From a virus, in the IMG/VR virus record IMGVR_UViG_3300017783_003463, positions 1-64,000 of that record: a stretch of DNA of 64,000 bases, one strand, 5' to 3'. Positions 3,512-23,540 of the stretch are shown piece after piece (the first letter of the stretch is position 1; every line of letters starts with the position of its first letter). Below the pieces are notes generated by a model. That model did not search any database, was not told the DNA's origin, and saw only the letters and a list, made by a program, of their open reading frames with translations. A program made the position numbers and the translations under genes.

Positions 3512-4353
3512 CTCAGTTTTTCCAATGCTTTGCGTACAGCCTTTCCAACTTTTTTATTACCTGCTTTATTAAAATGTCCAATAAAAGTATCTTTACCATC
3601 TCTGCTTATTTTAGGATCTATAGGAGCAAATATATGATACTTTTTATTGAGGAACATGTTCATACTACCTTTACCTACTCCCCAAGGATACGGAATATCT
3701 AAACATATACCGTGTTCAAATTGAGGTGTGACTTCTTCAGCTTCTTCTACCCATTTAAAATAATACAGTGGTGTTTCAGTTTCTCTGCATCTTTCATCTA
3801 TTAGTGTAGCACAACTTTGTATCACATGTTTATTGGTCATGCCATGAAACATCATTTTTCGCCATTCAATAGCTTCGTTTATGTTTCCTCCAAAGTCACC
3901 TTTGCCGTTAGCACTAATAAAATTAAAGTATCTAGCAGTGCCTTTACCTTGATATAAATCAACGTTTTCTGCTTGCACTTCATACTCATGCCAAAATCTA
4001 TCACCTATATGTCCTGGTTCATTCCATGTGAGTCTAGGTTCATATGTTAATTGTACTAATACATAATCGAAATCTTTGAGACGATTTTTATTGTAATAGT
4101 GTTCGAGTACTGTAGCATGTTGTACTATGCCTCCACCACTAACTGCATAAAGTGTGTGATAGTTTTTTGGATCTAAACTCTCAACCCAACCGCCATTTAC
4201 ATCAAGTGTTTCTCTGCCTAGTCCGTTGTCTACTTTCTTTGTAGTGCCGTCAGGTTGTAGCACATCACTATACATAATATAGTTTGGATCATATGTATAG
4301 CTTCCTGCACTAAAACTACAGCCAAACACCAATACATTTTCATTGTAGTCCAT
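3508..4353 (-). CDS. SGNH/GDSL-like hydrolase or acetyl-transfer protein
   Basis: 281 residues. The start VLVFGCSFSAGSY carries the SGNH nucleophile block (Ser in GCSFSAG, about 11-17). A glycine-rich SGGG follows near 94, then a 'YVLVQLTYEPR' strand, and a C-terminal 'GHFNKAGNKKVG' that supplies a candidate catalytic His. SGNH proteins remove or transfer acyl groups, often on surface polysaccharides. Gene ends overlap both neighbours. The second SGNH-like gene (4340-4999) is a paralogue. Confidence 0.65.
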   Translation of the reverse strand: MDYNENVLVFGCSFSAGSYTYDPNYIMYSDVLQPDGTTKKVDNGLGRETLDVNGGWVESLDPKNYHTLYAVSGGGIVQHATVLEHYYNKNRLKDFDYVLVQLTYEPRLTWNEPGHIGDRFWHEYEVQAENVDLYQGKGTARYFNFISANGKGDFGGNINEAIEWRKMMFHGMTNKHVIQSCATLIDERCRETETPLYYFKWVEEAEEVTPQFEHGICLDIPYPWGVGKGSMNMFLNKKYHIFAPIDPKISRDGKDTFIGHFNKAGNKKVGKAVRKALEKLR

Positions 4354-4999
4354 CGCCTAAACCTTTTTTAATCATCTGTCCTAAAACAGTGTTTCCTTTT
4401 TGTGTAAAGTGTAAATCCGGATTGTGTAAATCTTTTTTGTAAAACAGTTGTTCAGTTGCAGGCTTTACATCTAAGTATTTAATATATTTATATGGGTACT
4501 TAACTCCAGTAAAACTGTAGCTGTATGTGGGCAATCCTGTTTGTTGGGCTAGACGATCCAAGTGACTTGCACATGCTTTAGTTAGTATATTCCAACTGTT
4601 TTCCATTTGCCAAAACCAATCACTCATTCCTTGTTGCCATTTGAAATTATATTGGTTAGCAATTTTGTTTTGCACTTTAGGTAATCCTCCTAGTCTATTA
4701 TGAAATGCATTATCTATTGTCCATGCAAAAACATTGAGTCTAGATGTATAATACTCAAGTTGTTTTTGTATTACAATTCTAGGTTCCCATGTCTCTTGTA
4801 TAATTATAGCACTATATTTTTTTATGTCAATTGATTCTAAACATGCACAGTAGCTCATAATGCCACCTCCTGGATGTGCATAAACTTGATATGGCCGATC
4901 AAGTTCATCATACCAGCAATAGTCTGTGTGTAGTGTTTCTGTTGTATTGTCGTAGCTGTACCAGCCCATACTAAAACTACAACCTAATATTAATATCAT
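4340..4999 (-). CDS. SGNH/GDSL-like hydrolase
   Basis: 219 residues. ILILGCSFSMGWY at the N-terminus holds the nucleophile Ser, PGGGI is the second block, 'AIIIQETWEPR' the third, and 'DLHFTQKGN' near the C-terminus supplies the Asp-x-His pair. The set is more complete than in its neighbour at 3508-4353, with which it shares overall layout. Likely an esterase or O-acetyl/acyl hydrolase acting on a glycan. Its ATG overlaps the stop of the upstream radical SAM gene (ATGA). Confidence 0.7.
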   Translation of the reverse strand: MILILGCSFSMGWYSYDNTTETLHTDYCWYDELDRPYQVYAHPGGGIMSYCACLESIDIKKYSAIIIQETWEPRIVIQKQLEYYTSRLNVFAWTIDNAFHNRLGGLPKVQNKIANQYNFKWQQGMSDWFWQMENSWNILTKACASHLDRLAQQTGLPTYSYSFTGVKYPYKYIKYLDVKPATEQLFYKKDLHNPDLHFTQKGNTVLGQMIKKGLGDGLQ

Positions 5000-6270
5000 G
5001 CGTTAGCCTGTTCAACCAGTGTTTTCATATTTCCAAAGTTTACACTTTTATGATTTGCATTTGCTACTCTAGGATCACGTAGCACTTGTAAAAAGTTTTC
5101 GTATTCAGGATGATCGGGTTTCCAAATAGCTCTAATATTAAAGTCAATCATGTGTCCCCAATCAACAATAAGTGTAAATGTTGCTCTACTATACTTTCCA
5201 GGTCCTGACCAACGATCTGTTACCATTTGTATAAAGTCTGGTATCTCTTTATAGTTACATGTTTGTACAACAAAGTTATGACTCATTGCTCCGCTGAGTA
5301 GATTACCTGTATTGTAACTATTTTTAGTTTTTGTAAAACTAGGTATTTGACTGTAAACATAATCTACATTACTGACTAGTTGATCCCAGTGACCTCCTAG
5401 TCTTGTTTCTTTTTCATATGTTTCTTTTTTACCAGCATCAAAACTAAAAACAATTTGTTTAATTTGTTTATGAACTTTGCTTATACTATCCCAAACCTTA
5501 GGAGTAAGCATTACACCGTTTGTTTGAAAGTTAAGCCATGTGTTTGGTCTGTCAGTAAGATCCATTTCTTGTAAACGTTCTCTAAATATTTTACTACCAA
5601 AAGGATCACCACCACCTGTTATCCATATATCAAATTGATAATCTTTAGGTGCCTTCATTATTTCATCAAATAACTTATCTGTAAGTGATTTTCTTTGATC
5701 ATATTTTTCACCTTTAGAATGAATAATTTTACTATTTCTACAGCTAGGACAATATAAGTTACAACTTTCATCTGTACCAACTTGTATATCGTGTGGCAAG
5801 TAACTGGCTTGCGTACTACGGTTTTTTAATGACTCAATAATAATTGGATCTACATTATATTTTTTAGGATTATCTATTACATTAGTTATTAGTGGCAATG
5901 CTGTTTCTGCATACTGAATTTTAGGACAAGTGTTGTGTTTGCAATGGGGCCAGTTCGCTCCGTCATACAACTGGTTACGAATTTCCTGCGCCTTAGATCC
6001 ATTCCATATCTCTTCCATTGTGTTTACATTTAGATCACCTATGACTACTGGTAGCCAAAAAGGACAACACATGAAAACCAAACCCATGTTATTGATTTCT
6101 GCTCTATTAAAAAAATAACTGCAATATCTTCCGTTAAGATCTTTTTTGGTACCCGCAATAAGACTATCGTCTTGGTGGAAACCTTTGGGCTTCCATCCCT
6201 TAGGTTTACCTTTTATTACAATGTCAGGCGTTGAAGACTGCACTGCATCTACTACAGAGGTCAATGTCAC
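4996..6270 (-). CDS. radical SAM enzyme with N-terminal auxiliary Fe-S (SPASM/twitch-like) segment
   Basis: 424 residues. The radical SAM cluster motif CNLYCPSC (Cys170, 174, 177) and a GGGDP motif (219-223) define the core, which binds a 4Fe-4S cluster and S-adenosylmethionine. Ahead of the core is a Cys-rich segment (Cys50, 68, 69, 110, 115) with 'VNTMEEIWNG', the helix typical of SPASM domains, here at the N-terminal rather than the usual C-terminal side. Start is GTG at 6270 with AAAAGGAAAA upstream; it overlaps the preceding radical SAM gene by 47 bases. Substrate unknown. Confidence 0.85.
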   Translation of the reverse strand: MTLTSVVDAVQSSTPDIVIKGKPKGWKPKGFHQDDSLIAGTKKDLNGRYCSYFFNRAEINNMGLVFMCCPFWLPVVIGDLNVNTMEEIWNGSKAQEIRNQLYDGANWPHCKHNTCPKIQYAETALPLITNVIDNPKKYNVDPIIIESLKNRSTQASYLPHDIQVGTDESCNLYCPSCRNSKIIHSKGEKYDQRKSLTDKLFDEIMKAPKDYQFDIWITGGGDPFGSKIFRERLQEMDLTDRPNTWLNFQTNGVMLTPKVWDSISKVHKQIKQIVFSFDAGKKETYEKETRLGGHWDQLVSNVDYVYSQIPSFTKTKNSYNTGNLLSGAMSHNFVVQTCNYKEIPDFIQMVTDRWSGPGKYSRATFTLIVDWGHMIDFNIRAIWKPDHPEYENFLQVLRDPRVANANHKSVNFGNMKTLVEQANA

Positions 6271-7018
6271 AGCGTTTTCCTTTTGCTAATAATGATTTAT
6301 AGTCATTGTACTTTTTGCTATTCCAAACGTCTACAGGACTTGTATTCATGTCAACTTTGCCCACAGGATTGCGTTTACCAAAGTCCCATGGACACAAATA
6401 CATTGTACCGTCGATATATATAAATGCTTCATTTTCAACTTTTTTACAAGGCAAGTTTAAACTTTCGGTCTGATCTTCCCAAGGATGAGAATACAGTTCA
6501 GTAATTTTAGCACATCCTGGTCTTACATTATTCCAATAATCTAAAAACATTTCCTGTTCAGCTTCGGTATCTGGCAAGTTAATCATTCTCACCTCACAAT
6601 CTATTTCAGGATGATTGTCTACAAATCTAGTTACGTTTTCATATACTCTATCAAAGCTAATACCTCTTGTTTCATCAAAAGTTTTTTTAGTAAATCCATC
6701 AACACTAAAACGCATTATGTCAACAAACGGTGCAATCTTTCGTTCTGTTTTCAGCGTCATGGGTTCACCATTGCTGTTGAGTTCTACTTTGGCTGTAGGA
6801 TCTTCTTTGATATATCTTGCTATGTCCGGAAGTCTTGTATCAACTAGCGGCTCGCCTAGTCCAAAAGGTCTATACGTTATGCCTAGGTCTCTTGTATCAT
6901 CTATAATTTTATAGATCAATTCAGGTTCCATGTGTTCTTTAGGAACCAAATGATTTGGACAAAACCAACAAGTTGCATTACAAAATGTAGTTGTTTCTAT
7001 TTGGAGGTATTTAAACAT
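6224..7018 (-). CDS. radical SAM/SPASM enzyme
   Basis: 264 residues with the cluster motif CNATCWFC (Cys13, 17, 20) at the very N-terminus and a C-terminal SPASM-type segment (Cys191, 209, 250, 255, 258) including 'SPVDVWNSKKY'. This is the conventional order (core then SPASM), unlike the neighbouring 4996-6270 gene. SPASM radical SAM proteins modify peptides, sugars or other small substrates using two extra Fe-S clusters. Overlaps genes on both sides, so probably cotranslated. Substrate unknown. Confidence 0.88.
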   Translation of the reverse strand: MFKYLQIETTTFCNATCWFCPNHLVPKEHMEPELIYKIIDDTRDLGITYRPFGLGEPLVDTRLPDIARYIKEDPTAKVELNSNGEPMTLKTERKIAPFVDIMRFSVDGFTKKTFDETRGISFDRVYENVTRFVDNHPEIDCEVRMINLPDTEAEQEMFLDYWNNVRPGCAKITELYSHPWEDQTESLNLPCKKVENEAFIYIDGTMYLCPWDFGKRNPVGKVDMNTSPVDVWNSKKYNDYKSLLAKGKRCDIDLCSRCSAVFNA

Positions 7019-8022
7019 ATTAGTTTCTCAAATTGATCCTTGGGCAATGTAGTTAATCTGATAGCTGTGCTACTAAATTCTGGTGCTTTGCCATACAGTA
7101 TCTTTTGAGAATCTAATCTACTGATTATTTCGTCAGTTGGCTCAAACACAACATGATTGATCGTTGGCTCGCTATATATTTTACAATTACTAAAATATTT
7201 ATGTGCAAACTCAATACCTTCTCTATTGCGTTCCAAGCTCTTTTCTACTATATAATGATGTTTGTGCAGGTATTCTGCAAGTCTAAGTGTAATACTGCTT
7301 ACACTCATAATTGGTCTTATCTTTGTAATTTGACTAATTGTATTTGCATGTCCTTGTAGTATGCCAAGTCTAGCACCTGCAAGTCCCCAACTTTTGCTAT
7401 AACTAAATGCTAATAAACAATTTTCATAATTGCATAAGTCAAAATAATCTTCTGTACAAAAATGTCTGTATGTATTATCTATTAGCACAGTCATTTTTGG
7501 ATATGCTCCACAGATATAATCTATAAACTTTGCACTGTAAACTCGACCACTTGGATTATTTGGACTACAAATGTAAAATACATCTGGTCGATGCTGTTCT
7601 ATACTAGCTGTGATACTATCTTCATCTTCGTTGCATTCAATTATATTTGTAGTAAGGTCTATTGCATTTGTAACACTGCCTCTGTATGTTGGTGCTATTG
7701 TTAAGAACGTTTTACTATTATCAAGTGTTGCTTCAAATGTTAAACGTATTGCTTCGTCACAACCTCCAGTAATTAATATATTGTCCATTGTTGTGTTGTA
7801 GTAGTCGGCAAATATTTCATAGTACCTATAGTAATCTTCATACTTCATTGAACTTGACAAATCCAAAAAGTGTTTTATAGCTTTTTGTATATGACCACAC
7901 AGTACTTCGTCTTGGTTTTCATTTCTATCTAAGTTTATGTAGCCAGCTTCGATCTTTTCTACTCTATTAAGTAAGCCACTCCAATGTGGTCTTTGTAGTT
8001 GTTTTATACTATCTCTAATCAC
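6997..8022 (-). CDS. PLP-dependent aminotransferase, class I/II (HisC-like)
   Basis: 341 residues from a GTG at 8022 that overlaps the upstream stop; an ATG at 8097 would add 25 poorly conserved residues and overlap the upstream gene by 83 bases. Motifs of fold-type I aminotransferases are clear: CSPNNPSG (152-159), the PLP-contacting Asp in VLIDNTY (about 182), the Schiff-base Lys in FSYSKSWG (Lys210) and 'AGARLG'. The closest layout is histidinol-phosphate aminotransferase. In an island with glycosyltransferases and radical SAM enzymes it may aminate a keto intermediate; the real substrate cannot be told. Confidence 0.88.
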   Translation of the reverse strand: MIRDSIKQLQRPHWSGLLNRVEKIEAGYINLDRNENQDEVLCGHIQKAIKHFLDLSSSMKYEDYYRYYEIFADYYNTTMDNILITGGCDEAIRLTFEATLDNSKTFLTIAPTYRGSVTNAIDLTTNIIECNEDEDSITASIEQHRPDVFYICSPNNPSGRVYSAKFIDYICGAYPKMTVLIDNTYRHFCTEDYFDLCNYENCLLAFSYSKSWGLAGARLGILQGHANTISQITKIRPIMSVSSITLRLAEYLHKHHYIVEKSLERNREGIEFAHKYFSNCKIYSEPTINHVVFEPTDEIISRLDSQKILYGKAPEFSSTAIRLTTLPKDQFEKLICLNTSK

Positions 8023-9358
8023 TGAACACAACCTCAGCCTCAGCTTTTTGCTCTTCAGTTCTTTCAAAATAATATTTGTGTTCAATGTCTCTACCATAGA
8101 TAGGATAGTAAAAAATATCTTTATCTTTGGGTATTATTTTTTGCACTTTTTCAGCAAAAGGTGTATCTTCAAAACTCATACACTTAACATTAATTTGATC
8201 TTGTGGATAGTCTGCAACTAAATTGCTAACTTTTTGTAACACTTTATCTATTGTAAACTCTACATGAAAACTAAATTCTAAGAACACACCTTTGTCTAAT
8301 AGATCTCTATATTTTTTCTCACTGCCTGTTCCGTTTGTGCTTATTCTAGTTTCATATCCTTTTTTAAACGCTATGTCTACTAGGTCTGCTATCTGTGGAT
8401 TGAGTGTTGGTTCTCCTCCGGTAATATAAAGTCGTCGACTGGGTTTTTTAGGAACATAAGGATCAACTAAATTTAATCCATGTGTAAACTCATCTACAGT
8501 CATATGTGGGCTTGCGTTATCATGTACACCATTTATTAACTTGCCTGTATCATCAAAAGTTGGTCCAGGACAATATGCACAATCATAATTGCAACGTAAT
8601 CCAATATGAAAATGTACTTCAGCCATTGGCATTGCCATACCTCTACCCATTGCTACAATGTTATCATCTGTTTTTGCAACTGGTAATTCTTCTAACTGCC
8701 AATGATTAAACTGTTTATTTGTAGTAAAATATTCTAACAATTCTTCTGTTTTTGCTTTTGGTTGTAGTAAGTCAGCATCACAAAAACATGCTTTGGTTTT
8801 ACACAAAGTTTCTGTATTAAGATCTAACTTGTTATAATCTTTCCAATGTCCTTCGTGACTTGCAATATGTCTCACATTTGCACAAACACCACTACAAATT
8901 TCACCAACTGGATTAATACTAAAGTTAGTTTTATATATAGGACAATGCCAGCCTCGCATGTCCATTTGACGCATTTTTAAGTCTACCATGCTTATGCGTT
9001 TGTATTCCATTTTGTCTGTTAATACATAAACTGGATTCTCTACATACACAGGCTTTTTATAACCAATAGTGCCATCATCTCGTATTAGTATGCCGGTATT
9101 ACCTGTACCAATCCATACGTTACCATTCATATTTCTTGTTACAAGTTGTTCAACAATTTGTCCATCTTCGTAACGGTTAATATTACGAGTAACTTTGCTT
9201 ACAGCATAACCATGTAACTTGTCGTCTTTATACTGTCCTGCATATGTTTTGTCAACACCCAATCCGTTGCGTTTACCGTCAGTATATTCAGCAACCGAAT
9301 CTTCCATCTCGCCCGGACCCGAGTAACCATTTCTAAGCATTTTTTTAGTTACTTTCAT
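8015..9358 (-). CDS. MORN-like repeat / auxiliary Fe-S / radical SAM fusion protein
   Basis: 447 residues from the ATG at 9358, preferred because AAGGAAG lies upstream; an ATG at 9388 is also in frame. N-terminal residues about 25-70 contain MORN-like units ('YAGQYKDDKLHGYAV'). A Cys-rich segment follows (Cys139, 155, 159, 186, 191, 193, with CKTKACFC). The radical SAM core has CNYDCAYC (Cys256, 260, 263) and GGEP (314-317). MORN repeats are usually protein- or membrane-binding, so the fusion with a radical SAM core is unusual. The same Cys-rich segment occurs after the core in the gene at 13523-14560. Confidence 0.82.
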   Translation of the reverse strand: MKVTKKMLRNGYSGPGEMEDSVAEYTDGKRNGLGVDKTYAGQYKDDKLHGYAVSKVTRNINRYEDGQIVEQLVTRNMNGNVWIGTGNTGILIRDDGTIGYKKPVYVENPVYVLTDKMEYKRISMVDLKMRQMDMRGWHCPIYKTNFSINPVGEICSGVCANVRHIASHEGHWKDYNKLDLNTETLCKTKACFCDADLLQPKAKTEELLEYFTTNKQFNHWQLEELPVAKTDDNIVAMGRGMAMPMAEVHFHIGLRCNYDCAYCPGPTFDDTGKLINGVHDNASPHMTVDEFTHGLNLVDPYVPKKPSRRLYITGGEPTLNPQIADLVDIAFKKGYETRISTNGTGSEKKYRDLLDKGVFLEFSFHVEFTIDKVLQKVSNLVADYPQDQINVKCMSFEDTPFAEKVQKIIPKDKDIFYYPIYGRDIEHKYYFERTEEQKAEAEVVFSD

Positions 9359-10001
9359 GGTACTCGCTTCCTTGTCTGAAGAAATCATATTCTGGGTATC
9401 CAGTAACTTCTTTTAGTATAAAGTTATCCTTTTTAAAAACCAGATCAACCTGGTGCAGGTTTCCACGTTCATAATCCATGTTTACAATATCCCACAAGTG
9501 AAAACCTATATCTTCTAGTTCTATTTTTATAAAACCAATAGTGTCTAATTGACTTTCTACTACTATCAGATTAAATTTAGCCAGTGTCTCTAATCCGCCA
9601 ACTATTACATCTAATTCATAACCATCGACGTCAATTTTACACAAACTATGCAAAGGTGGGTCAATACCTAAACTATCCAAAGTTTTTATGTTAGACTTTA
9701 TATCAAAAGTTTCGCCTTCGTGTACGCACCTTAAACTTGCTTGTGTTTGATTAGTGTTACCAACTGCTACATTTATAAGTTCATAACTGTAGTTTTTATA
9801 GTTTTCGTATATTACATTATTATGATTTGTATCTGGTTCAACTAAAACATAATGTGCTTTAGGAAAACTATACTGTAACCACGGAGTTCCCGAATGTACT
9901 CCAATATCCAAACAATATTCAACGTGACAACCCGACTCTTTTAAAAATTGCAAGCTATCTTTTATTCTAGGAATACGATGTCTAATCATTTCCGACCTCA
10001 T
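9345..10001 (-). CDS. FkbM-family methyltransferase
   Basis: 218 residues. The SAM-binding motif is CLDIGVHSGT (30-39), the acidic end of beta-2 is 'VLVEPD' (52-57), and the FkbM signature is CKIDVDGYELDV (121-132). FkbM enzymes O-methylate sugars, polyketides or surface glycans. The gene overlaps both neighbours, and with the methyltransferase at 9982-11415 forms an adjacent pair. Likely to methylate the product of the island; acceptor unknown. Confidence 0.88.
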   Translation of the reverse strand: MRSEMIRHRIPRIKDSLQFLKESGCHVEYCLDIGVHSGTPWLQYSFPKAHYVLVEPDTNHNNVIYENYKNYSYELINVAVGNTNQTQASLRCVHEGETFDIKSNIKTLDSLGIDPPLHSLCKIDVDGYELDVIVGGLETLAKFNLIVVESQLDTIGFIKIELEDIGFHLWDIVNMDYERGNLHQVDLVFKKDNFILKEVTGYPEYDFFRQGSEYHESN

Positions 10002-11415
10002 ATAATCCTAGTTCGTCAGCTTCAAAGTTTTCCGGCTTGGGAGACCATATTCCTATTAGTGCATTTTTATATTGCCAATAGCTCTGAGGACGCATGTCCC
10101 ATATTCTCCATTTACCCTTTCTTGCAAGATCCAGTTGTGGTTGATCTAATGTTTCATGCGAGTATATGTCAGGAGTGCAACACATTTCTTCACTAACTAA
10201 AATTCCTCTTTGTGGATTCATTAGGTTCTTTACAGCATGTAATTTCTTCCATGCTGTGACTCCGTGTGTTGCATCATGTATTGCAAAATCTACCGGACCA
10301 TACTTGTTCATTAACTGTTTACAAGTATTAGGTGAATAGCAATTTACACCAAGCTCTAGTTTTACTCCTTCAATTTTACTAGCAATTTTTAAATCTTCTA
10401 CTTGCTGTCTCTCTAGTGCATTTTCAGGTATACTAGTTGGTGTTAGTTTATCAACTCCGATTATAGTTGCTTGTGGAAATAATTTTTGTAAAAACTGTAA
10501 ATGTTCGCCTCTACCAATTCCAAGTTCAACAATAGTATAATTTTCATTTAATCCAAATATTTTATTTGTTCTTTTAAGATGTTTAACTATCAAATCATAT
10601 ACTGCACAGTATCTTCTTTGCATTCTGCGTTCAACACTTCTAGTAGTATTGTCTACCATATCAAATGCAATGCTACTATATGTTTCAAAGTCTACCGGAG
10701 TGCCTAGTAAAAAGTTGCTCTCATAATCTCCTTGCCCTAACTGTTGAACTTGTATTCTTCCATGGTGTCTCCCACTTAAGAAATGTCCTTTTGCAGTTCT
10801 AATCCAATCTCCGTAGTGTGTTGTATCTCTTTTTCCTTGTATAAAGTTATATGGAGGTACATGTTTAGTTTCAGTAACAAAGTTTTTCTCTTCATGCCTA
10901 GTTACATCAAACTCTTGTTCATCTTTATAAGTTGTAGTTCTACCACCTACTGCATTTACTATTGTGCCATCATCGAGTGTTCTACAACCTAAACCATCTA
11001 TGTTGCATTCTTCTAATCCACATGGTACATCATTTAGATACCACTGTCCTTCTCTTGGTTCAGCAATCATTCCATCTACACGACCTATAAACTTTACACC
11101 TTCGTGTACTGTTTCAAGTACACCGTAGCCGCAAGGTTTGTTATTACTAAACTGTCCATAATATCTTGCACCAGTGGGCCATACATGCACACCATATCCT
11201 TGTTTTTTATCCAACAAGTATTGTCCTACATAAGTTTCACCATGATCCCATTCTTTAGAGGCCATGCCAGTAACTTTACTGTGATCAAAATCAGCCGCAC
11301 ACTTGCCTGTCAATGGCAGATTATAAAATCCTAAGCCATGTTCAAACTGTGTTCCATGTCGGTCTTGCACGACTTGTCCTATGTATGTTCTAGATGGCTT
11401 ATAGTAGTCCCTCAT
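9982..11415 (-). CDS. MORN-repeat protein fused to class I SAM methyltransferase
   Basis: 477 residues from the ATG at 11415, which forms an ATGA overlap with the upstream stop and has AAGGAA upstream; an ATG at 11433 is also possible. Residues about 55-130 contain MORN units ('ETYVGQYLLDKKQGYGVHVW', 'ARYYGQFSNNKPCGYGV'). The C-terminal part has the SAM-binding motif VELGIGRGEH (about 296-305), 'IIGVDK' and 'DFAIHDATHG', resembling cephalosporin-hydroxylase-like/class I methyltransferases. MORN repeats fused to a methyltransferase are unusual in a phage. The repeats could tether the enzyme to a membrane or to the MORN-bearing radical SAM partner. Confidence 0.8.
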   Translation of the reverse strand: MRDYYKPSRTYIGQVVQDRHGTQFEHGLGFYNLPLTGKCAADFDHSKVTGMASKEWDHGETYVGQYLLDKKQGYGVHVWPTGARYYGQFSNNKPCGYGVLETVHEGVKFIGRVDGMIAEPREGQWYLNDVPCGLEECNIDGLGCRTLDDGTIVNAVGGRTTTYKDEQEFDVTRHEEKNFVTETKHVPPYNFIQGKRDTTHYGDWIRTAKGHFLSGRHHGRIQVQQLGQGDYESNFLLGTPVDFETYSSIAFDMVDNTTRSVERRMQRRYCAVYDLIVKHLKRTNKIFGLNENYTIVELGIGRGEHLQFLQKLFPQATIIGVDKLTPTSIPENALERQQVEDLKIASKIEGVKLELGVNCYSPNTCKQLMNKYGPVDFAIHDATHGVTAWKKLHAVKNLMNPQRGILVSEEMCCTPDIYSHETLDQPQLDLARKGKWRIWDMRPQSYWQYKNALIGIWSPKPENFEADELGLYEVGND

Positions 11416-12158
11416 GCAAAATGTTCCTTGCAATAATTGTAGAACTCTATGTCCTTTGTTGTTGTTTCTTTCACTAGTTGTTTCTCAACGTCTGTTAGTT
11501 CCTCATAATTTACATAGTCAATACCATGTTGACTTAAATTAAACTTTGTATTATGCTCATAGCTAATACTTAGATTGGGTTTCAGATCATACTGCTTGGC
11601 TACTTTATCAAACTGTTTTAAGTAATTATCCTCCATAAAGAACATATGATCTAGTTTTTGTATATTCTCAATAGCTTGATCATATAGTTCTTGTTCATAA
11701 ACGGTATCAATTTTCCTTCCGTAATCAATACGCAAACATTGTTCATTACTGAACTTCTGATATTGTGCATATACAGGAGTTGGATGTAATCTACTACAAT
11801 TAATAATCCAAGTTGTAAAGTCAATATCAGTAATACAACTATGCACGTTAATTATTTCTAACTTGAAATAATTGTATGCACTCATGATCCGTCTGACAGG
11901 ATCTCTTAGTATAGTAGCATACTTTACAGGATTTTGCAAGTGTTTATCTAAATCAAAGCTAACGCCATGTCCAATTATCAAACTAACCTTTTGATCTTTG
12001 CAATCTTCTATTAGAACTTTATACTGATTGGGTTGTCTAAAATTAAACACTAGTTCTTGAGCAACACGTTGATAAGCAAATGTACTATTTGTTCTATATC
12101 TGTTTACTAGAGTGGTTCCTCCATTTTTAAGTATATGAAATACTGCTAGTGTTTCCAT
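11412..12158 (-). CDS. sulfotransferase-family protein
   Basis: 248 residues. The 5'-phosphosulfate-binding loop is recognisable as HILKNGGTTL (8-17), and the 3'-phosphate-binding block as LRDPVRRIMSAY (84-95). These are the two PAPS-binding signatures of membrane-type carbohydrate sulfotransferases. The usual Pro-Lys of the loop is Leu-Lys here. It would transfer sulfate from PAPS to a hydroxyl or amino group of a glycan. First of three tandem family members; it overlaps its neighbours by a few bases. Confidence 0.8.
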   Translation of the reverse strand: METLAVFHILKNGGTTLVNRYRTNSTFAYQRVAQELVFNFRQPNQYKVLIEDCKDQKVSLIIGHGVSFDLDKHLQNPVKYATILRDPVRRIMSAYNYFKLEIINVHSCITDIDFTTWIINCSRLHPTPVYAQYQKFSNEQCLRIDYGRKIDTVYEQELYDQAIENIQKLDHMFFMEDNYLKQFDKVAKQYDLKPNLSISYEHNTKFNLSQHGIDYVNYEELTDVEKQLVKETTTKDIEFYNYCKEHFA

Positions 12159-12982
12159 TTGTCTTCACACCTTTTGAAAAATTCTATGTCTGCTTGTAAA
12201 TCTAATTCAACAAGATATTTTAAGTCTTCGTCTAGTTGATGATACTTAACATATTCTAAATTGTGTTTGCTTAAATCATGGCTTGTTTCATTTGTATAAA
12301 TCATTTCTTCCCATGCATCTAAATCTAATTTATAGTGTGCTAGTAAATCGTCAAACCTTTCAACTATGTCGTCTTCTTGGAAAAACACATGATCCATTTT
12401 ACTCATTACTCTTTCCCAAGTGATATTCATATTGTGTGTTTCAATTTGATTTTTTTCTTTTATCTTCTGCTGTATTTTTGCGTTGTCAACATAGCTTGTG
12501 TCTTTTTCAACGTCCCATGTAAGCACTGTGTTTAGATACATGTCGTTCATTGTAAACGTATTTTTTAACGTTCCGGCGTCGAACCAATCAGTGTGTTCTA
12601 CATGTTGATACAAATAGTATTCGTACTGTTTTGTAACTGGCATTGGACGTAGCACATCTTTGTTTATAAACCACATATAAAAATCAATGTCAGGACTGTC
12701 TGGGTTCATATACAGCATTTGTGTACGATAAAAATTGTACATGCTCATTATTCTACTGATAGGATCTCTCACACAAGTTATATAAACTAAGTTGTTAGAA
12801 AGTTTTTCTTCGTAGTATCCTATTTGTACACTGTGTCCAAAAACTACACTTGCTTGTTCTGTAACTTTATCACCAAGGTCAGTAATTCTAAAACTACTGT
12901 TGGTATTTCTGTATCTTTCTTTGAGTGTTGTTCCGCCTGTTTTAGGACAATGAGGAAAGATGATAATATTACTTTGATTCAT
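12146..12982 (-). CDS. sulfotransferase-family protein
   Basis: 278 residues with a textbook 5'-phosphosulfate loop, CPKTGGTTL (12-20), and 3'-phosphate block, VRDPISRIMSMY (71-82). The best-conserved member of the three-gene sulfotransferase run and likely catalytically competent. No signal peptide is visible, so it would act in the host cytoplasm. Overlaps the genes before and after it by 13-14 bases. Confidence 0.85.
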   Translation of the reverse strand: MNQSNIIIFPHCPKTGGTTLKERYRNTNSSFRITDLGDKVTEQASVVFGHSVQIGYYEEKLSNNLVYITCVRDPISRIMSMYNFYRTQMLYMNPDSPDIDFYMWFINKDVLRPMPVTKQYEYYLYQHVEHTDWFDAGTLKNTFTMNDMYLNTVLTWDVEKDTSYVDNAKIQQKIKEKNQIETHNMNITWERVMSKMDHVFFQEDDIVERFDDLLAHYKLDLDAWEEMIYTNETSHDLSKHNLEYVKYHQLDEDLKYLVELDLQADIEFFKRCEDKWKH

Positions 12983-13526
12983 TGTACACTCCGGTTTGTA
13001 TTTTTCTTTTACACTTTCTTAAAAAATTATAATCTATACTGTTAGCTACTTGATAGTCTCCTCGTAGTGCAGTGTCGAGCTCATTACTTTCAAATCTAGT
13101 GTTAAAGTTCAAAAGTGGATAATCTGTTTTTAAATACTTGCTGAGTCTTTGTGAAAGAATTTCCAAAGTAAAATCATCATGATTCATAACTTGTTCTTTT
13201 GGATAAAGAGATCCTTTAGTAGGGTTCCATGTGATATAATTAATAAACCCTATAAATTTGTAATTTTTTTCTTCAATTTCTTTAGTTTCACTAGTGTGTA
13301 TATCTAAACTTGTAGTAATTACATTTCTTTCTTGAAACACTAACTCTTCAAAAGTTTTACCCTTAGAATCTCCTCCACTGTCTAAAAAATCCATTGTTTG
13401 TTCTATAGCTCTATCAAACGGATCTCTGAATATTAAAATGTCAGCATTTTCTGTTACTAGCTCTAAGTTGTATATGTTTGCAATCTGTTCATGCCAGCAG
13501 TTTGGAATATAATGTAATTTATTCAT
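12969..13526 (-). CDS. short sulfotransferase-like protein lacking the N-terminal PAPS loop
   Basis: 185 residues. 'LIFRDPFDRAIEQ' (31-43) resembles the 3'-phosphate-binding block of the two neighbouring sulfotransferases, and the remaining layout is similar. The PKTGGTT-type loop that holds the sulfate donor is replaced by 'MNKLHYIPNCWHEQIANIYN', so it may be inactive or regulatory. The start (ATGA overlap with the upstream stop) fixes the N-terminus, arguing against a missed upstream exon-like part. Assignment is by resemblance and context. Confidence 0.6.
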   Translation of the reverse strand: MNKLHYIPNCWHEQIANIYNLELVTENADILIFRDPFDRAIEQTMDFLDSGGDSKGKTFEELVFQERNVITTSLDIHTSETKEIEEKNYKFIGFINYITWNPTKGSLYPKEQVMNHDDFTLEILSQRLSKYLKTDYPLLNFNTRFESNELDTALRGDYQVANSIDYNFLRKCKRKIQTGVYNESK

Positions 13527-14560
13527 ACAGCTACCGCTTCTTTAAACTTGCTTAGTATCAAATCAGTATTGCAAAAACAACTTGTCTTTTCACATGTGTA
13601 TGCATAAGCAGGCATTCTAAAAGTCCTAAGATTCTCTATATGTCCAAGCCACCTTATAGTACCATTTTCATCTTTACCTTCAGGTAAACATGCGGCTCCA
13701 CTAATATATCCAAGTTCATTGACAAATAAACCATCTATACCAGCATTACACTTCCATCCTTTGAATTGATTTTTCTTTGAAGCATATAGTCCGTTTGTAT
13801 CTAATATAGTTTCTTCTTTGTATCTGCCATCAGCCATTTTATAAACTGCTGTAGCATCAATTGGCATACTGTACTGTTCAAAACTAACATCTGGGTTACC
13901 AGTTTTTCTTTTGAATGCTAGTTTCTCATCAATCTTTGCTTGCTGTTCTTTTGTGTATACATGTGGTCTTTCTTTCTCTGTTAACCAATCAGCAACAATA
14001 GGAACTTTCTCTACAAAAAACTGTCCCATATATGGTTGTGTTTTTAGTATTTCAAAAAACTCAATACACTTATCAAAGTATACTTGTTGTGGGTGCATCA
14101 TAATACGCACTCCTAATAGTGTATAAGGCCAAAGTGTATCAATAACTTTAACACAATGTTTTAAACTTGTTTTCTCACTGTGAAAACTAAAACTTACCCA
14201 ACGAAAACTTTCTTTGTGCTTTTCCCAAAATTTAAGACTTTTGCTTCCGTTTGTTGTCAATCCAATTTGTACCTTTTCTTCTACTAACCAGGTTAGGAAA
14301 TCATCGAATACAGGCAATGCTGTAGGTTCACCGCCAGTAAAACTTATAACAAGTTCTTCATCTTCATTGAGATAACTTTTAATTTTAGTTACAAATGCTT
14401 TGTATACTTCTAAGTCAAAAGCAGGACTACTACCTTCGTAATTGTAAGGGTGGCAGTATGCACAACTGAAATTACACTTGTTGGTCAAGTTCCAGTTTAC
14501 ATGAAAGTATTTGTTATACTTTTGTTTGATCTCAATAAGTTCTGCACTATCCGACAGCAT
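13523..14560 (-). CDS. radical SAM enzyme with C-terminal auxiliary Fe-S segment
   Basis: 345 residues. The core motif is CNFSCAYC (Cys29, 33, 36) and GGEP is at 76-79, with 'QIGLTTNGS' typical of the barrel. The C-terminal Cys-rich segment (Cys271, 291, 323, 328, 330; GWKC ... NELGYI ... CEKTSCFC) is homologous in order and spacing to the segment that precedes the core in 8015-9358. Probably a multi-cluster radical SAM enzyme with a small-molecule or peptide substrate. Start overlaps the upstream gene by 14 bases. Confidence 0.87.
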   Translation of the reverse strand: MLSDSAELIEIKQKYNKYFHVNWNLTNKCNFSCAYCHPYNYEGSSPAFDLEVYKAFVTKIKSYLNEDEELVISFTGGEPTALPVFDDFLTWLVEEKVQIGLTTNGSKSLKFWEKHKESFRWVSFSFHSEKTSLKHCVKVIDTLWPYTLLGVRIMMHPQQVYFDKCIEFFEILKTQPYMGQFFVEKVPIVADWLTEKERPHVYTKEQQAKIDEKLAFKRKTGNPDVSFEQYSMPIDATAVYKMADGRYKEETILDTNGLYASKKNQFKGWKCNAGIDGLFVNELGYISGAACLPEGKDENGTIRWLGHIENLRTFRMPAYAYTCEKTSCFCNTDLILSKFKEAVAV

Positions 14561-15560
14561 CTACTTTTCCCTCGGTAAGTTTATAGCCGCTAACTTGATT
14601 AAAGTCTGGATCTGGAACTATATCAAAACTTCCAACTTTTAACATTCCCCAGGTTAGCATATCAAATTTGTTACGAGTATCAGTCTTTTTAATTTTATAA
14701 CCACCCCAGTAGTTGTCTAAACTATAATTTAAATGATCTACTGCTTCTTCATGTGTTCTTGGATCGCCACACCAAAACATTAGTTGACTGGTGTAACAGC
14801 AACATTGTTCTAGTAAATCAAAACTACTACTGGTCATTTTGATAGCATTGTATTTGTCATCATCATACATTTCGATCATCACGTTATCATAATCGTACCC
14901 TATTTGTGTAGGATATAAAAATATCTCGCCTGGATTTCGTTCCATACTAAAACGATCAACCCATTCATCTTCTAAATAATGAAACTGTTCACCAAACTTC
15001 AATCCAAAATTTTGTAGATTTGTTTCTTGTGTAACAGTTGTTGTTACGTCTCTTAATACTTTGAGTGAATGGAAAATATCAACCAACTTTTCAATATGTC
15101 TCGTAAGTCCTTGGTCATTTAGAACACGATAGATTAGTATACATTGTGTTTGCATAGGATTAAGTATATCCTGGTGTACTATTAGCCCCCATTGGTGATC
15201 TATTTTTCCAGCATCCATTTTATACCATTCTTGTAATGGAATAAACTTTTGCAAAGTATTATCAATCTTAGTAAATGCTTGTCCACTACTCATTACGGTG
15301 TGTCCTAGTATGTCACTCAACGGTATGTTGTCAGTTTTGTATGCATCTGCAATTTCATTCCATTCTTCTATTTTATCATTGAGAGCAGGAATGATTTCGT
15401 ATAATCTTTCTAATGCTTGATGAACCAGATACACATTCCAATGTGTTATATATGGTTTACCGATAATATCTAACTCCAACTCAAACCAGTCTGCAAAGAT
15501 ATCGCATTTGATTAGTTGTTTTTCTTTTTTATCGTTTTGTAATTCAAGCTCAAACTTCAT
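14547..15560 (-). CDS. hypothetical protein of the radical SAM cluster
   Basis: 337 residues from the ATG at 15560 (MKFELELQ), chosen because GGAG lies six bases upstream; an ATG at 15590 is in frame. No recognised motif, transmembrane segment or signal. It is acidic and aromatic-rich, with a run of cysteines ('LEQCCCYTSQLMFWCG') in the C-terminal third. It lies between two radical SAM genes and overlaps both, so it may be a partner or scaffold for them. Function unknown. Confidence 0.65.
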   Translation of the reverse strand: MKFELELQNDKKEKQLIKCDIFADWFELELDIIGKPYITHWNVYLVHQALERLYEIIPALNDKIEEWNEIADAYKTDNIPLSDILGHTVMSSGQAFTKIDNTLQKFIPLQEWYKMDAGKIDHQWGLIVHQDILNPMQTQCILIYRVLNDQGLTRHIEKLVDIFHSLKVLRDVTTTVTQETNLQNFGLKFGEQFHYLEDEWVDRFSMERNPGEIFLYPTQIGYDYDNVMIEMYDDDKYNAIKMTSSSFDLLEQCCCYTSQLMFWCGDPRTHEEAVDHLNYSLDNYWGGYKIKKTDTRNKFDMLTWGMLKVGSFDIVPDPDFNQVSGYKLTEGKVDAVG

Positions 15561-16848
15561 ACTTGCTCCATAGTTTATAAAGCTCTGCAAAGTCAGAATT
15601 GAAGTCTGTTTTACGCATTGTATCTATACTGCGAATATATTTGTTGAGGGCGGGCCACTTGTCGCTCCAATCCTCGCTATTCATAAAGTTTGTCATATTC
15701 TTTAATTCTTGCACTTTATTCTTTTCTGGGTATTTCAGCATGAAGTTATCAATTTTTTCTGTTATAATTTGTTTCATTTCCTTAGGTAATACTTTAGCAC
15801 ACATGTACTGTGGATAGTGTAACACGCCAGGATGAAACATTCCTTGGTGATCATGTATTCCAATTTTTTTATAGTTTTGATCAAACAAAAACTGTGCAAA
15901 GTCTGGCAAATACCAAATGTTTAATGCACTTACAGTACACAATACTTTACCAACAATATGGTCAGCCGCGTTTTCTACTTTGTCCAGTGTTTCGTGTACA
16001 GTTTTCCAATTAGTTGGATAGCGTAACCATTTGTTCATTTCGCCTATGCCATCTATACTAAGCATAAGTTCTACAAACTTAAAGTGACCCCAAAGTTCTA
16101 ATATATCATCTGGCATAATAGTACCATTGGTATGATAGCGTAGTTCTATATGTTCAGCATGTCCACTTTCGACACATTTCTTTAAGAAACGTCTGTGGTT
16201 CTTTAAATATAAAGGCTCGCCGCCTGCAAATATAAAGTGACGCATTCCGGCTAACAATGGATCTATCTCTTGTTCCCAAAACTCATCATCAGCGGCCCAG
16301 TCATATTTGTTGTTGCAATGGTCTTGTATTTTCCAATCCCAGTCACCTTTTACTTCAGGATTGTCGTGACTTAGATCTCTAATCTTTTCTGCATCTTTGA
16401 CCCATTTACTAGAGTCAGTTGGTCTACACATAACACATTGTACATTACAAGTATTACCTAACCGTAAATCTAATGTAATAACATCTTGATCCAAACTGCC
16501 ATCTTCGTTAGTGCTGGCTATTAGTTCGTCAACATATTCTCTTGTTAATTTCTTTACCCATAGATTGTTTTCATTCATTCTATGACTACGAATACCTGCC
16601 GCTTCTTCTTTCCAGCAATGCATACATGCTTTTAGTGCTTTGCCGCTGAGCATATCTTTTCTAGCATTTTTCCAATAGTAACTGTTCCATACTGCATTTA
16701 TATCAGCATTGTTTAAGTTAATACGTTGGTCTTGTGTAGGCTGAGCTAGACAGCAAAGCAAAGCTGTGCCGTCTGTATAAGTTGCCATGTGCATCCATGG
16801 AAGAATACAAAATTTCTTTCCATAGTCTTCCAAAAAATCTTGTGCCAT
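15550..16848 (-). CDS. radical SAM enzyme with N-terminal twitch/SPASM-like segment
   Basis: 432 residues. The N-terminal segment has Cys14, 32, 33, 75 and 78 (FCILPWMH, LLCCLA, CMHC) and a SPASM-like 'NAVWNSYYWK' helix. The core follows with CNVQCVMC (Cys134, 138, 141) and GGEP (209-212). Its start overlaps the stop of the next upstream gene by one base (TAATG), and that gene is a clear paralogue with the same order of motifs. Substrate unknown. Confidence 0.88.
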   Translation of the reverse strand: MAQDFLEDYGKKFCILPWMHMATYTDGTALLCCLAQPTQDQRINLNNADINAVWNSYYWKNARKDMLSGKALKACMHCWKEEAAGIRSHRMNENNLWVKKLTREYVDELIASTNEDGSLDQDVITLDLRLGNTCNVQCVMCRPTDSSKWVKDAEKIRDLSHDNPEVKGDWDWKIQDHCNNKYDWAADDEFWEQEIDPLLAGMRHFIFAGGEPLYLKNHRRFLKKCVESGHAEHIELRYHTNGTIMPDDILELWGHFKFVELMLSIDGIGEMNKWLRYPTNWKTVHETLDKVENAADHIVGKVLCTVSALNIWYLPDFAQFLFDQNYKKIGIHDHQGMFHPGVLHYPQYMCAKVLPKEMKQIITEKIDNFMLKYPEKNKVQELKNMTNFMNSEDWSDKWPALNKYIRSIDTMRKTDFNSDFAELYKLWSKYEV

Positions 16849-18200
16849 TATTCTACCAACTTTCTAACATTTTGATACAAGTCATCATCAACAATACTAA
16901 AGTTGGTATTACGCTGTCTGTCCCATACTTCTGTCATCTTCACAAAGTCTTGTAATTGTTCTTTCCAATTATCTAACTGTGGTTGTTCCAAATATCCTAC
17001 GATACCATCTACACTATTCTTAATTAACCAGTTCTTCTCATATAATATATTACACTGTTCTTTAAATTCAAGCAATCTATTTTTTGCATTCTGTCTCATT
17101 TCAACAGGAAGATTTCTCACATCTAAATACGGAGGATGTGTATTAATTAATATGTCAACACCAATACTTTTCCATTCTATTTCTGGCTTTCCTGCATAAA
17201 ATTCTTCGCCTAACTCGTGTGCAAGCCATAGTATTTCGTGTATTCGATTTATGTTGTAGATTTGTAGTACAGGACTTATATTGCTAGAAACGTTTGGTAA
17301 ACTTAATATGCTTCTATAGTTTCTAAGTATAATGTCCCAACTCTTAGTGCCTCGTATAAATTCATTTACAACGCCTACACCATCTAAACTAGCATTGATG
17401 TCTACACTTTCAAATTTACCAATACTATCCAAAAACTTTTGATTAGCATTTGTACAGTTGGTATTCATAAACACATTAATATGTTTACTATGACCTTGTT
17501 CAGCGGCATAGTTTAAAAACTGCATGTTGTTTTGAATCATAGTTGGCTCACCACCTGTCATGTAAACTTTTCTTAGTTTAGGCATCCATTCGTATATGTC
17601 TTTCCAAAAATCATCAGCATCAAACTTTTCTCTGTATTCTTTGCTGTTGATCCAGTCTGGACGTTTGCCGTATGTTTTCTCTTGTATTCTGGTATAGTCC
17701 TCTTCAACATCTGTGAGCTTGGCATCTTCTTTAGCAATAGTACTACTGTTAAAACTGTTGCACATTCTACAACTAAGATTACACAAGTTACCCAAACGCA
17801 GGTCCAAGTAAAGAGGATCGTGTTCTGGTAATGCAAAGTCATTATTATAGCTTGCTTCAATGCGTTCATGAATAGCTTCTTCGCCTATACGGCGTTCCCA
17901 TTCCTCATTGTGCATTTGTCTGAAACTTTTTTTACCTACTTCTTCTTGCAGGTAACAGTGTTTACAACTACTAACTTGTTCTCCTTGAATCATAGTCATG
18001 CGTATATCACGCATGTCTTTATCATTCCATGCTTGCTTTAGTGTTGTACTATTGATATCTAAAATTTTGCCATCATCGCCACGTAGTACACTGGGTTTGG
18101 CAATACAGCAAAAGTCAATACTTCCACTGGTATTCACCATCATGCTTAACCAAGGGTAAACACAAAATGTTTCCCCGTACAATTCATCCCAGTCTGCCAT
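16848..18200 (-). CDS. radical SAM enzyme with N-terminal twitch/SPASM-like segment (paralogue)
   Basis: 450 residues. N-terminal Cys13, 31, 32, 79 and 82 (FCVYPWLS, DFCCIA, CKHC), then the core CNLSCRMC (Cys140, 144, 147) and GGEP (216-219). Layout and spacing match the protein encoded at 15550-16848, so the pair arose by duplication. Both sit directly downstream of the glycosyltransferase-like genes, suggesting they act on the same pathway. Substrate unknown. Confidence 0.88.
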   Translation of the reverse strand: MADWDELYGETFCVYPWLSMMVNTSGSIDFCCIAKPSVLRGDDGKILDINSTTLKQAWNDKDMRDIRMTMIQGEQVSSCKHCYLQEEVGKKSFRQMHNEEWERRIGEEAIHERIEASYNNDFALPEHDPLYLDLRLGNLCNLSCRMCNSFNSSTIAKEDAKLTDVEEDYTRIQEKTYGKRPDWINSKEYREKFDADDFWKDIYEWMPKLRKVYMTGGEPTMIQNNMQFLNYAAEQGHSKHINVFMNTNCTNANQKFLDSIGKFESVDINASLDGVGVVNEFIRGTKSWDIILRNYRSILSLPNVSSNISPVLQIYNINRIHEILWLAHELGEEFYAGKPEIEWKSIGVDILINTHPPYLDVRNLPVEMRQNAKNRLLEFKEQCNILYEKNWLIKNSVDGIVGYLEQPQLDNWKEQLQDFVKMTEVWDRQRNTNFSIVDDDLYQNVRKLVE

Positions 18201-18202
18201 GC

Positions 18203-19180
18203 TTACTCAATACTATCATCGACTTGATCTTCTCTTACCATAGCACCTAGTCTGTGTGGATTTTTATAAACAGTTTTAAAGAATCTACTTCCGATATGAT
18301 CCATATCTGTAATTTCAAAATCTAACACACTCCTAAGTTCGTCACCTAGTTCTATAGTTTTAGCTTTGAGTTTATTCCAATCCCAACTTACACCAGTATT
18401 CACGCACATTTCTTTGCCGCCTTCAAATTGAGGGAACAGTTCTTCATTAAACATTTTGCTTAACCAATCAAAGTCTCTCACATTACGCCAATCCCATTTG
18501 CGTCTTTCTATGTTAGTCATGTGACAACCTAATCTAGCACCATATATTGCCCATAAACCATTTGTAGCATCTTCACCTACTGTCATCCACACCAACAGTC
18601 TTTTATAGTTCTCGTAATGTATTCTTTTGATATCAGCAGGATCAACTACATCACCGCCTTCTAATCCCATTTTTACACCTTCACGGAAACCTGCTCTCCA
18701 TGCCTGTAGTGGGCTACCATTATTAGCTACATCACAATAAACATTGTTCATCTGTATATAACGTATATTCCAACAAAAGTCAACTTGTGCCGCTTTGTCA
18801 CTTTCAGGAGCCGCTTCATGTGTACGCATTTTATTAACAACGTCTACGGGCCAGCACTTAATACCGCCATTTCCATATACCAATCCGTTTACTGCATTTT
18901 TTCCTGCCCAGCTAATTACATCAGTCGGAGTAACTCTATCCATGTTTAGTTCAGCATTAAAAAATTCTTCTCTTACAATATTATCTGCATCAATTGTAAT
19001 AAATCTATCCGTTTCAGCTATTGCCGCGGCGGCTTTGTGTGCGGCATCACTACCCCATACTCCGTGACTGCGTTTTGCCCACGGACATTTATCTTGTAAG
19101 TCTGCCCAATTTTGTTCTGCGTTAGGCTCGTCATAGCTGATATATATTATATCGAACTCTGTAACTGGCGTTAGTGTCAT
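18203..19180 (-). CDS. glycosyltransferase-like protein
   Basis: 325 residues. It has an early 'DIIYISYDEPNAEQNW' strand, and 'ITIDADN' (about 81-87) supplies a DxD-type metal and nucleotide-sugar binding motif, as in GT-A fold enzymes. A later 'VYGNGGIKCWP' segment fits the acceptor side. Proteins of this look are frequent in T4-like marine phages. Spaced two bases from the radical SAM gene downstream and three from 19184-20191 upstream. Probably transfers a sugar; donor and acceptor unknown. Confidence 0.6.
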   Translation of the reverse strand: MTLTPVTEFDIIYISYDEPNAEQNWADLQDKCPWAKRSHGVWGSDAAHKAAAAIAETDRFITIDADNIVREEFFNAELNMDRVTPTDVISWAGKNAVNGLVYGNGGIKCWPVDVVNKMRTHEAAPESDKAAQVDFCWNIRYIQMNNVYCDVANNGSPLQAWRAGFREGVKMGLEGGDVVDPADIKRIHYENYKRLLVWMTVGEDATNGLWAIYGARLGCHMTNIERRKWDWRNVRDFDWLSKMFNEELFPQFEGGKEMCVNTGVSWDWNKLKAKTIELGDELRSVLDFEITDMDHIGSRFFKTVYKNPHRLGAMVREDQVDDSIE

Positions 19181-19183
19181 AGT

Positions 19184-21966: not shown

Positions 21967-21969
21967 TCA

Positions 21970-22317: not shown

Positions 22318-22344
22318 ACTGAGTTTCTCCTTTAGTTATATACT

Positions 22345-22374: not shown

Positions 22375-22381
22375 CAGTTTT

Positions 22382-23539: not shown

Positions 23540-23540
23540 C

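Follow-up and report, generated by a model that had tools for sequence, protein, structure and literature searches.

Radical SAM genes clustered beside the tail-fibre genes of a putative T4-like phage and their possible role in carbohydrate modification

Clusters of radical S-adenosylmethionine (rSAM) genes have been described in phages before. Campylobacter phages CP220 and CPt10 are reported to encode 11 and 12 rSAM proteins, respectively, with an exchangeable cluster of five, and 11 to 12 rSAM genes in one phage are termed highly unusual (PMC2853527). For an uncultured T4-like Tara genome, TARA_ERS488813_N000010, 12 rSAM genes and an A-type Fe-S carrier are reported (PMC5332604), and pelagimyophages are described as having a hypervariable host-recognition island, between VrlC and gp14, with glycosyltransferase family 8 (GT8) genes, sugar genes, and rSAM cassettes (PMC7029224). 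Here we analyze an rSAM gene cluster in IMG/VR virus record IMGVR_UViG_3300017783_003463; "the window" denotes positions 1 to 64,000 of that record, the whole 64,000-base stretch analyzed. A first-pass annotation of the window had recognized six rSAM enzymes between 4996 and 18200 and had set them apart from typical phage genes. That contrast was partly wrong: multi-rSAM islands recur in phages, both in the virus records surveyed below and in three reports (PMC2853527, PMC5332604, and PMC7029224), and the class is therefore known.

The source record is a 77,321-base virus contig with T4-like genes. Its phage origin is clear from PHROG matches to baseplate wedge and hub proteins, a late sigma factor, an SbcC/SbcD-like pair, and a portal protein; that these families belong to T4 is in part our presumption. 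To judge from its genes, the virus is an uncultured T4-like phage, and it is probably marine, given the habitat of relatives such as that in the metagenome-assembled genome (MAG) MED685. An 87,129-base IMG/VR contig (G001) comes from the same phage as the record (G000), since matched proteins of G001 and the window are 100% identical, with one at 99%. G001 has 18 rSAM matches, 17 of them above the Pfam cut-off. Seventeen of the matches share the minus strand and fall between 10337 and 47051 (~37 kb), and the other, on the opposite strand, accompanies a weak B12-binding match. Hence, the earlier count of six was right for 4996 to 18200 but understates the island. The run extends beyond the left edge of the window, where a seventh rSAM gene is truncated, leaving its end at 3 to 569. 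Overlaps occur in 39 of 50 pairs of adjacent genes in the G001 minus-strand run, and the island directly adjoins the tail-fibre genes, downstream of them. No riboswitch or other known RNA matched Rfam at the gathering threshold in the window or in two stretches of G001. Beside one rSAM gene, G001 also encodes a 74-residue protein lacking cysteine (23319 to 23543), which is 73 to 96% identical in G002, G003, and G004 and is also found in G009:C3 and G012; it may be a carrier, an adaptor, or a peptide substrate.

All six genes of the block (4996 to 6270, 6224 to 7018, 8015 to 9388, 13523 to 14560, 15550 to 16848, and 16848 to 18200) lie on the minus strand, and each product scores above the curated cut-off for Pfam Radical_SAM (PF04055). 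This bears out the six original calls, and five of the gene positions given with them were right; the third gene starts at 9388, not 9358. The motif CxxxCxxC occurs in exactly 6 of the 66 open reading frames (ORFs) of at least 60 residues in the 77,321-base record, namely, these six, against 0.05 expected when each protein is shuffled. In alignments of four to six sequences per gene, the window's own included, the core cysteines are invariant for all six genes. Auxiliary cysteine sets are likewise present in all six, as had been claimed, and every cysteine is invariant apart from one each in the genes at 6224, 8015, and 15550.

The auxiliary sets are N-terminal in the proteins encoded at 4996, 8015, 15550, and 16848 and C-terminal in those encoded at 6224 and 13523. 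Pfam SPASM passes its cut-off in four proteins and falls below it in those from 8015 and 13523, and the sets are of two kinds. A SPASM/twitch set stands before the barrel in the 4996 enzyme (PF04055, 40.1 bits; PF13186, 36.1 bits; 9 of 9 cysteines invariant in four sequences), which is below the cut-off for the N_Twi family (NF033640, 70.5 versus 170 bits), and in the two enzymes that belong to that family, 15550 to 16848 (383.8 bits) and 16848 to 18200 (356.4 bits). A related set lies behind the barrel (z, 5.5 to 6.0) in the 6224 enzyme (PF04055, 55.6 bits; PF13186, 31.5 bits). A GWxC-type set stands behind the barrel in the 13523 enzyme (PF04055, 41.8 bits; 10 of 10 cysteines invariant in five sequences) and before it in the 8015 enzyme, which has a MORN-like N terminus (PF04055, 46.8 bits; MORN, 18.9 bits, below the cut-off of 22.5). 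The likeness of these two sets (z, 9.0 over shuffles) suggests that one auxiliary module occupies swapped positions in the 8015 and 13523 genes. Viperin-type synthesis of antiviral nucleotides was considered and rejected (best NF038283 score, 51.6 bits; cut-off, 180).

We compared the block with eight contigs from about four lineages (G002; G003 to G005; G006 to G008; and G009:C3). Reciprocal best matches covered all 13 genes of the span in G002, 12 each in G003, G004, and G009:C3, and 11 in G007; the thirteenth gene of G009:C3, although absent from the ORF calls, is open on inspection. According to the first-pass annotation, a common pathway would be contradicted if relatives never kept these genes together. 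We found the opposite: the five relatives whose contigs span the block (G002, G003, G004, G007, and G009:C3) all have its genes in the same order. Two or three span genes, also in order, occur in G005, G006, and G008, which says little because these contigs end inside the island. For the six rSAM genes, dN/dS (ratio of nonsynonymous to synonymous substitution rates) was 0.04 to 0.19 where dS was computable, compared to 0.05 for gp55 and 0.09 for the portal gene; the values are rough because dS was high or saturated in several comparisons. We conclude that the rSAM genes are under purifying selection.

The N_Twi family, whose name carries no function, includes the two window proteins and nine in G001 above the cut-off and is here multiplied into mostly old paralogues. 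Recent local amplification was rejected for most of these genes, since seven of the nine G001 members are nearer to a row beyond the close relatives than to any paralogue of their own (FastTree, 218 rows; the row from the MED685 phage-like contig is left out of these counts). The other two, at 13829 and 15021, are nearest each other.

The strongest leads to function are sugar enzymes, two of which are encoded further left than the window reaches and were seen in the G001 copy of the island. The first is a 779-residue protein (G001 27081 to 29420) that joins a Gfo/Idh/MocA oxidoreductase to an rSAM domain (PF01408 and PF04055); its C-terminal 189 residues, cut by the contig edge, are encoded by window gene 3 to 569 (minus strand), with 100% identity to the end of the G001 gene. 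Residues 372 to 755 align with residues 104 to 485 of DesII, the dTDP-4-amino-4,6-dideoxyglucose ammonia-lyase (PDB 8hzv; E value, 5.7e-73). Unlike DesII, the phage domain is fused to the oxidoreductase, and its TIGR04426 score of 352.1 bits is below the equivalog cut-off of 450; we therefore call it DesII-like rather than DesII. Its near neighbour in G001 is a UDP-glucuronate decarboxylase gene (E value, 7.5e-96), whose product is homologous over its full length to UXS1, at 324 bits versus 109.5 for the next family. The third lead is rSAM gene 6224 to 7018, which overlaps the aminotransferase gene at 6997 to 8097. Its best match among solved structures is BtrN (4m7s; E value, 3.5e-14), a dehydrogenase of an aminoglycoside pathway. 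The two proteins are similar in length, with a likeness that is one of sequence and is strongest over residues 1 to 104 only. The N-terminal part of N_Twi proteins matches the C-terminal part of BtrN (E value, 0.00027), and the predicted model of 15550 to 16848 (predicted local distance difference test [pLDDT], 82) has an rSAM fold, with BlsE, a cytosylglucuronate decarboxylase, as the nearest PDB structure (Z, 13.0).

Several further genes fit a decorated glycan, namely, those for a carbamoyltransferase, an FkbM protein, an adenosine phosphosulfate (APS)-kinase-like protein, and weakly matched sulfotransferase-like and GT8-like proteins. Inside the rSAM run of G001, and also of G009:C3 and G044, is a nucleosidase of the PNP/MTAN superfamily (PF01048, 64.2 bits, above the cut-off), a family found in seven virus records and G009 among the 44 searched. 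Its best NCBIfam score (PRK05634, 95.7 bits) is below the cut-off of 129, and hence its substrate is not fixed by family. MTAN is reported to cleave 5'-deoxyadenosine, an inhibitor of rSAM reactions (PMC7557402). Around bacterial N_Twi genes, the two commonest names among the first 25 of 151 families were glycosyltransferase family 2 (5 of 150 clusters) and epimerases (4 of 150); these 150 were drawn at random from the 219 that were left of 247 after 28 had been removed on account of their length. The early hint of a natural-product or glycan pathway thus gains support from the DesII-like, UDP-glucuronate decarboxylase, BtrN-like, and weak GT8-like (E value, 0.001) proteins.

Sugar chemistry is moderately supported, and we give carbohydrate tailoring roughly even chances. 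The decarboxylase, the DesII-like fusion, and the BtrN-like enzyme with its aminotransferase would oxidize, deaminate, and aminate a nucleotide sugar or sugar residue. The APS-kinase-like enzyme could help to supply 3'-phosphoadenosine 5'-phosphosulfate to the sulfotransferases; FkbM, the second methyltransferase, and the NodU-type carbamoyltransferase might cap hydroxyls; and the GT8-like enzymes might transfer the product. Further radical steps would fall to the N_Twi enzymes, while the nucleosidase would remove the by-product 5'-deoxyadenosine. The protein families, gene order, cysteine conservation, selection, and promoter matches were observed directly, whereas we infer the substrates, the order of these steps, their timing, and the target; the last may be a surface glycan of the host, altered, e.g., to block superinfection.

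Timing bears on the target. A sigma70-type promoter match (TTGACA-18-TATAGT; 22345 to 22374, minus strand) lies 28 bases before the gene for a 115-residue protein (21970 to 22317, minus strand), the first of the glycosyltransferase-rSAM unit, and a like site lies 25 to 29 bases before this gene in all 10 contigs (about five distinct sequences). Of the five contigs with a gene for a 234-residue protein further left, four have a similar site before it, and in the remaining contig the site overlaps the called start. Allowing one mismatch at most, we counted 16 sites in G001, nine of them just before called genes, compared to a mean of 6.45 and a maximum of 12 in 20 shuffles. There is also a perfect TTGACA-17-TATAAT at 3351 to 3379, inside gene 2966 to 3511 and before the APS-kinase-like gene, and the orthologous gene holds perfect sites in G002, G003, G004, and G009:C3. 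The motif TATAAATA, which we take to be the T4-type late motif, is not enriched overall (5 in the window versus 9.7 expected), and none occurs between 4996 and 24463. Four of the five sites are 8 to 44 bases before phage genes. One of these (25085 to 25092, minus strand) heads the run from the fibre genes into the island and is present in 7 of 10 contigs, G006 to G008 being those that lack it. The simplest reading that this pattern suggests is early expression with possible late read-through. Because the host-type promoters suggest early expression, a host surface glycan would be the likeliest target. We put at about one-half the probability of this reading as a whole, in which the block belongs to a biosynthetic island that the phage carries by its tail-fibre genes and that makes or decorates a carbohydrate early in infection, likeliest on the host surface.

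Comparable islands occur in many environmental virus records. Forty other IMG/VR records that encode the N_Twi family have 2 to 25 rSAM matches each, and 19 of them have at least 10; these counts include matches below the Pfam cut-off (E values up to 0.001). The records, with one MAG in addition, were mostly the longer contigs among at least 80 matching viral loci, and some form near-identical pairs (e.g., G025/G026, G033/G035, and G021/G022). Sampling was unequal and the counts of loci are lower bounds; hence, the frequencies are not those of all viruses. One enzyme, rSAM16 (G001 10337 to 11458), is 74 to 90% identical in 19 other virus records and G009:C3. It thus occurs in 21 of 44 records searched, itself included, and six more have a match near 50%. 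It had no match among 50,697 GenBank phage records, of which eight protein queries each matched at most five. None was found in 368 other genomes of the class of gammaproteobacterial MAG G009, where the sole match is the phage-like contig of that MAG. In the 21 neighbourhoods of rSAM16, an N_Twi enzyme occurs in 14, a 2-oxoglutarate-dioxygenase-like protein in 11, and a small short-chain dehydrogenase/reductase (SDR)-like protein in 10, the last two assigned by eye; the SDR-like protein had no Pfam or NCBIfam match. Divergent viruses therefore share a core set with a variable remainder. Of 24 virus records, 6 encode A-type Fe-S carriers, which agrees with the report of the Tara genome (PMC5332604); these six are not closely related to the window, and no carrier was found in the G000 to G004, G006, and G007 fragments. 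MED685, a single gammaproteobacterial MAG, holds two phage-like contigs (C3 and C12) with different versions of the island; the binning is a weak hint of the host. As a tentative and rather doubtful generalization, uncultured T4-like phages may share an undescribed early biosynthetic system, with islands of 10 to 25 rSAM genes around a phage-restricted core rSAM gene, some with a nucleosidase of their own against 5'-deoxyadenosine, that make a new sugar-based compound or surface glycan.

Several observations weigh against an early carbohydrate pathway. The DesII-like score is short of its equivalog cut-off. The sugar pathway is incomplete, as no DesI-type aminotransferase was recognized among the scanned proteins and the aminotransferase of the block is HisC-like. 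The BlsE match of the 15550 model is near-tied with the peptide maturases SuiB, SkfB, and anSME, and rSAM16, the best-conserved rSAM enzyme, offers no functional hint. Among 120 clusters of proteins encoded between rSAM genes in other viruses (2 of 122 were dropped for length), at least 79 could not be named by Pfam; the names that recur most in the first 25 of 28 families are Asp/Asn hydroxylase (6) and QueC (5), and UDP-glucose dehydrogenase accounts for 2. The bacterial neighbour counts are small, and neither they nor the viral counts have a matched control. As for timing, all promoter sites are consensus matches, 7 of the 16 in G001 do not precede a called gene, and the fibre run has a late motif ahead of it. 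Since the presumably late portal gene shares a sigma70-type site, this type of site is no proof of early expression.

The near-tied peptide maturases point to a different substrate: the rSAM enzymes might modify a peptide or protein, either a product like the ribosomally synthesized and posttranslationally modified peptides or the phage tail proteins, with a contribution from the Asp/Asn-hydroxylase-like enzymes. Twitch/SPASM rSAM enzymes are often peptide maturases, the hydroxylase-like gene lies near the conserved rSAM gene in 11 of 21 neighbourhoods (by eye), PF05118 occurs in 6 of 120 clusters, the conserved 74-residue protein is encoded beside an rSAM gene, and the island adjoins fibre genes. 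However, no short gene is present among the ORFs of at least 60 residues called in the span (13 genes), the 74-residue protein has neither cysteine nor a variable core, and the best-assigned enzymes, the DesII-like protein and the UDP-glucuronate decarboxylase, are sugar enzymes. We consider a peptide or protein substrate rather unlikely.

If carbohydrate is the substrate, the same enzymes might instead act late in infection and attach a modified glycan to the phage's own virion, i.e., to its tail fibres. The position directly downstream of fibre genes in a run headed by TATAAATA would suit this, as would the genes for sulfo-, methyl-, and carbamoyltransferases. However, all 10 contigs retain the sigma70-type site ahead of the unit, and the island from 4996 to 24463 lacks the late motif. 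Because of these promoters, we prefer the host surface and regard virion decoration as unlikely.

That the genes lack a common product and are a loose collection of auxiliary metabolic genes by which host metabolism is boosted, as proposed for CP220 (PMC2853527), would agree with gene content that varies widely among viruses. It is hard to square with the order kept in the five spanning relatives and the core set that recurs in divergent viruses, and we think it very improbable. Least probable of all is nucleotide or DNA hypermodification that protects the phage genome, for which the QueC-like genes (5 of 120 clusters), weak QueE-like matches of window rSAM proteins, and a QueD-like gene in Campylobacter phage CP220 speak, since no Que-type gene scored above the cut-off in the window block or among the scanned G001 island proteins and the sugar genes would be left unexplained.

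The remaining genes of the block and its flanks, all on the minus strand, are of uneven certainty. Among the genes interleaved with the rSAM genes, the first-pass calls of an aminotransferase and an FkbM methyltransferase are solid, whereas a second methyltransferase and both sulfotransferases do not reach Pfam cut-offs and are less well supported. The aminotransferase is a pyridoxal phosphate enzyme like histidinol-phosphate aminotransferase (PF00155, 96.5 bits; hisC, 135.4 versus a cut-off of 276.55; 3get, E value of 4.9e-16), and the FkbM-type protein (9345 to 10001) matches PF05050 at 38.5 bits (cut-off, 22.7). Gene 9982 to 11433 encodes MORN repeats (PF02493, 27.0 bits; MORN1 structures, E value of 7.3e-12) and a methyltransferase-like domain (FtsJ, 17.7 bits; cut-off, 24.1). 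Here and, weakly, in 8015 to 9388, MORN repeats with eukaryotic best matches are joined to phage methyltransferase-like and rSAM domains, respectively. The sulfotransferase-like proteins are encoded at 11412 to 12158 (PF06990, 16.1 bits; cut-off, 27; with KTGGTT, seen by eye and presumably a P-loop) and 12146 to 12982 (PF03567, 20.6 bits; cut-off, 22); their joint profile weakly matches heparan sulfate 6-O-sulfotransferase (E value, 0.0057). Conserved proteins are encoded at 12969 to 13526 (no Pfam or PHROG match; orthologues at 34 to 90%) and, between rSAM genes, at 14547 to 15590 (no Pfam match; 43 to 85% identity in four relatives), for which the predicted model is unusable (pLDDT, 41).

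To the left are genes for a NodU-type carbamoyltransferase (524 to 2005; PF16861, 177.6 bits; PF02543, 135.8 bits; phrog_1601), a small nucleotidyltransferase-like protein (2190 to 2582; PF01467, 18.1 bits, below the cut-off of 21), an APS-kinase-like P-loop kinase (2572 to 3006; PF01583, 31.1 bits, above the cut-off of 21.1, with AAA_33 slightly higher at 33.6), and two conserved proteins without a Pfam match (3508 to 4353 and 4340 to 4999) that are SGNH-like by eye only (GCSFS motif). To the right are a conserved protein, glycosyltransferase-like by eye (18203 to 19180; 67 to 94% in seven relatives; no Pfam match), and two weakly matched GT8-like glycosyltransferases (20148 to 21062 and 21055 to 21966), whose profile weakly matches glycogenin-1 (E value, 0.0011), with a DxD motif invariant in eight sequences. 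Beyond the island, 25088 to 36382 encodes a 3,764-residue protein whose position resembles that described for VrlC. An 802-residue protein of the structural region (62540 to 64948) is subtilase-like by eye, and its first 486 residues have no Pfam match. A heme oxygenase gene (record positions 64978 to 65511; PF01126, 67.9 bits) lies among tail genes immediately beyond the right edge of the window.

The locus places 17 co-oriented rSAM genes, over ~37 kb, in one conserved region of a phage lineage. If the carbohydrate interpretation is true, phages are an untapped store of radical sugar chemistry, and infection may remodel the surface of the host. Assays could start directly from the decarboxylase, the DesII-like fusion, and the BtrN-like enzyme. 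In the open-licence PMC papers searched, we found no account of a phage DesII or of this gene set, nor of an island on this scale, a core enzyme restricted to phages, an auxiliary module in swapped positions, or the leads to sugar chemistry. In our own count, CP220 has 11 rSAM matches, nine above the cut-off. Its cluster lies next to NDP (nucleoside diphosphate)-sugar-transferase-like genes, but the annotation of the 30 kb examined lists no DesII-like protein, UDP-glucuronate decarboxylase, sulfotransferase, or carbamoyltransferase, and the likeness to 13523 to 14560 amounts to roughly 30% over 40%. In HTVC008M, a single rSAM match, compared to the 18 of G001, is encoded close to a carbamoyltransferase and a UDP-glucose dehydrogenase. 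The pelagimyophage islands (PMC7029224) apparently occupy the same structural region and, like the island described here, combine glycosyltransferases with rSAM cassettes.

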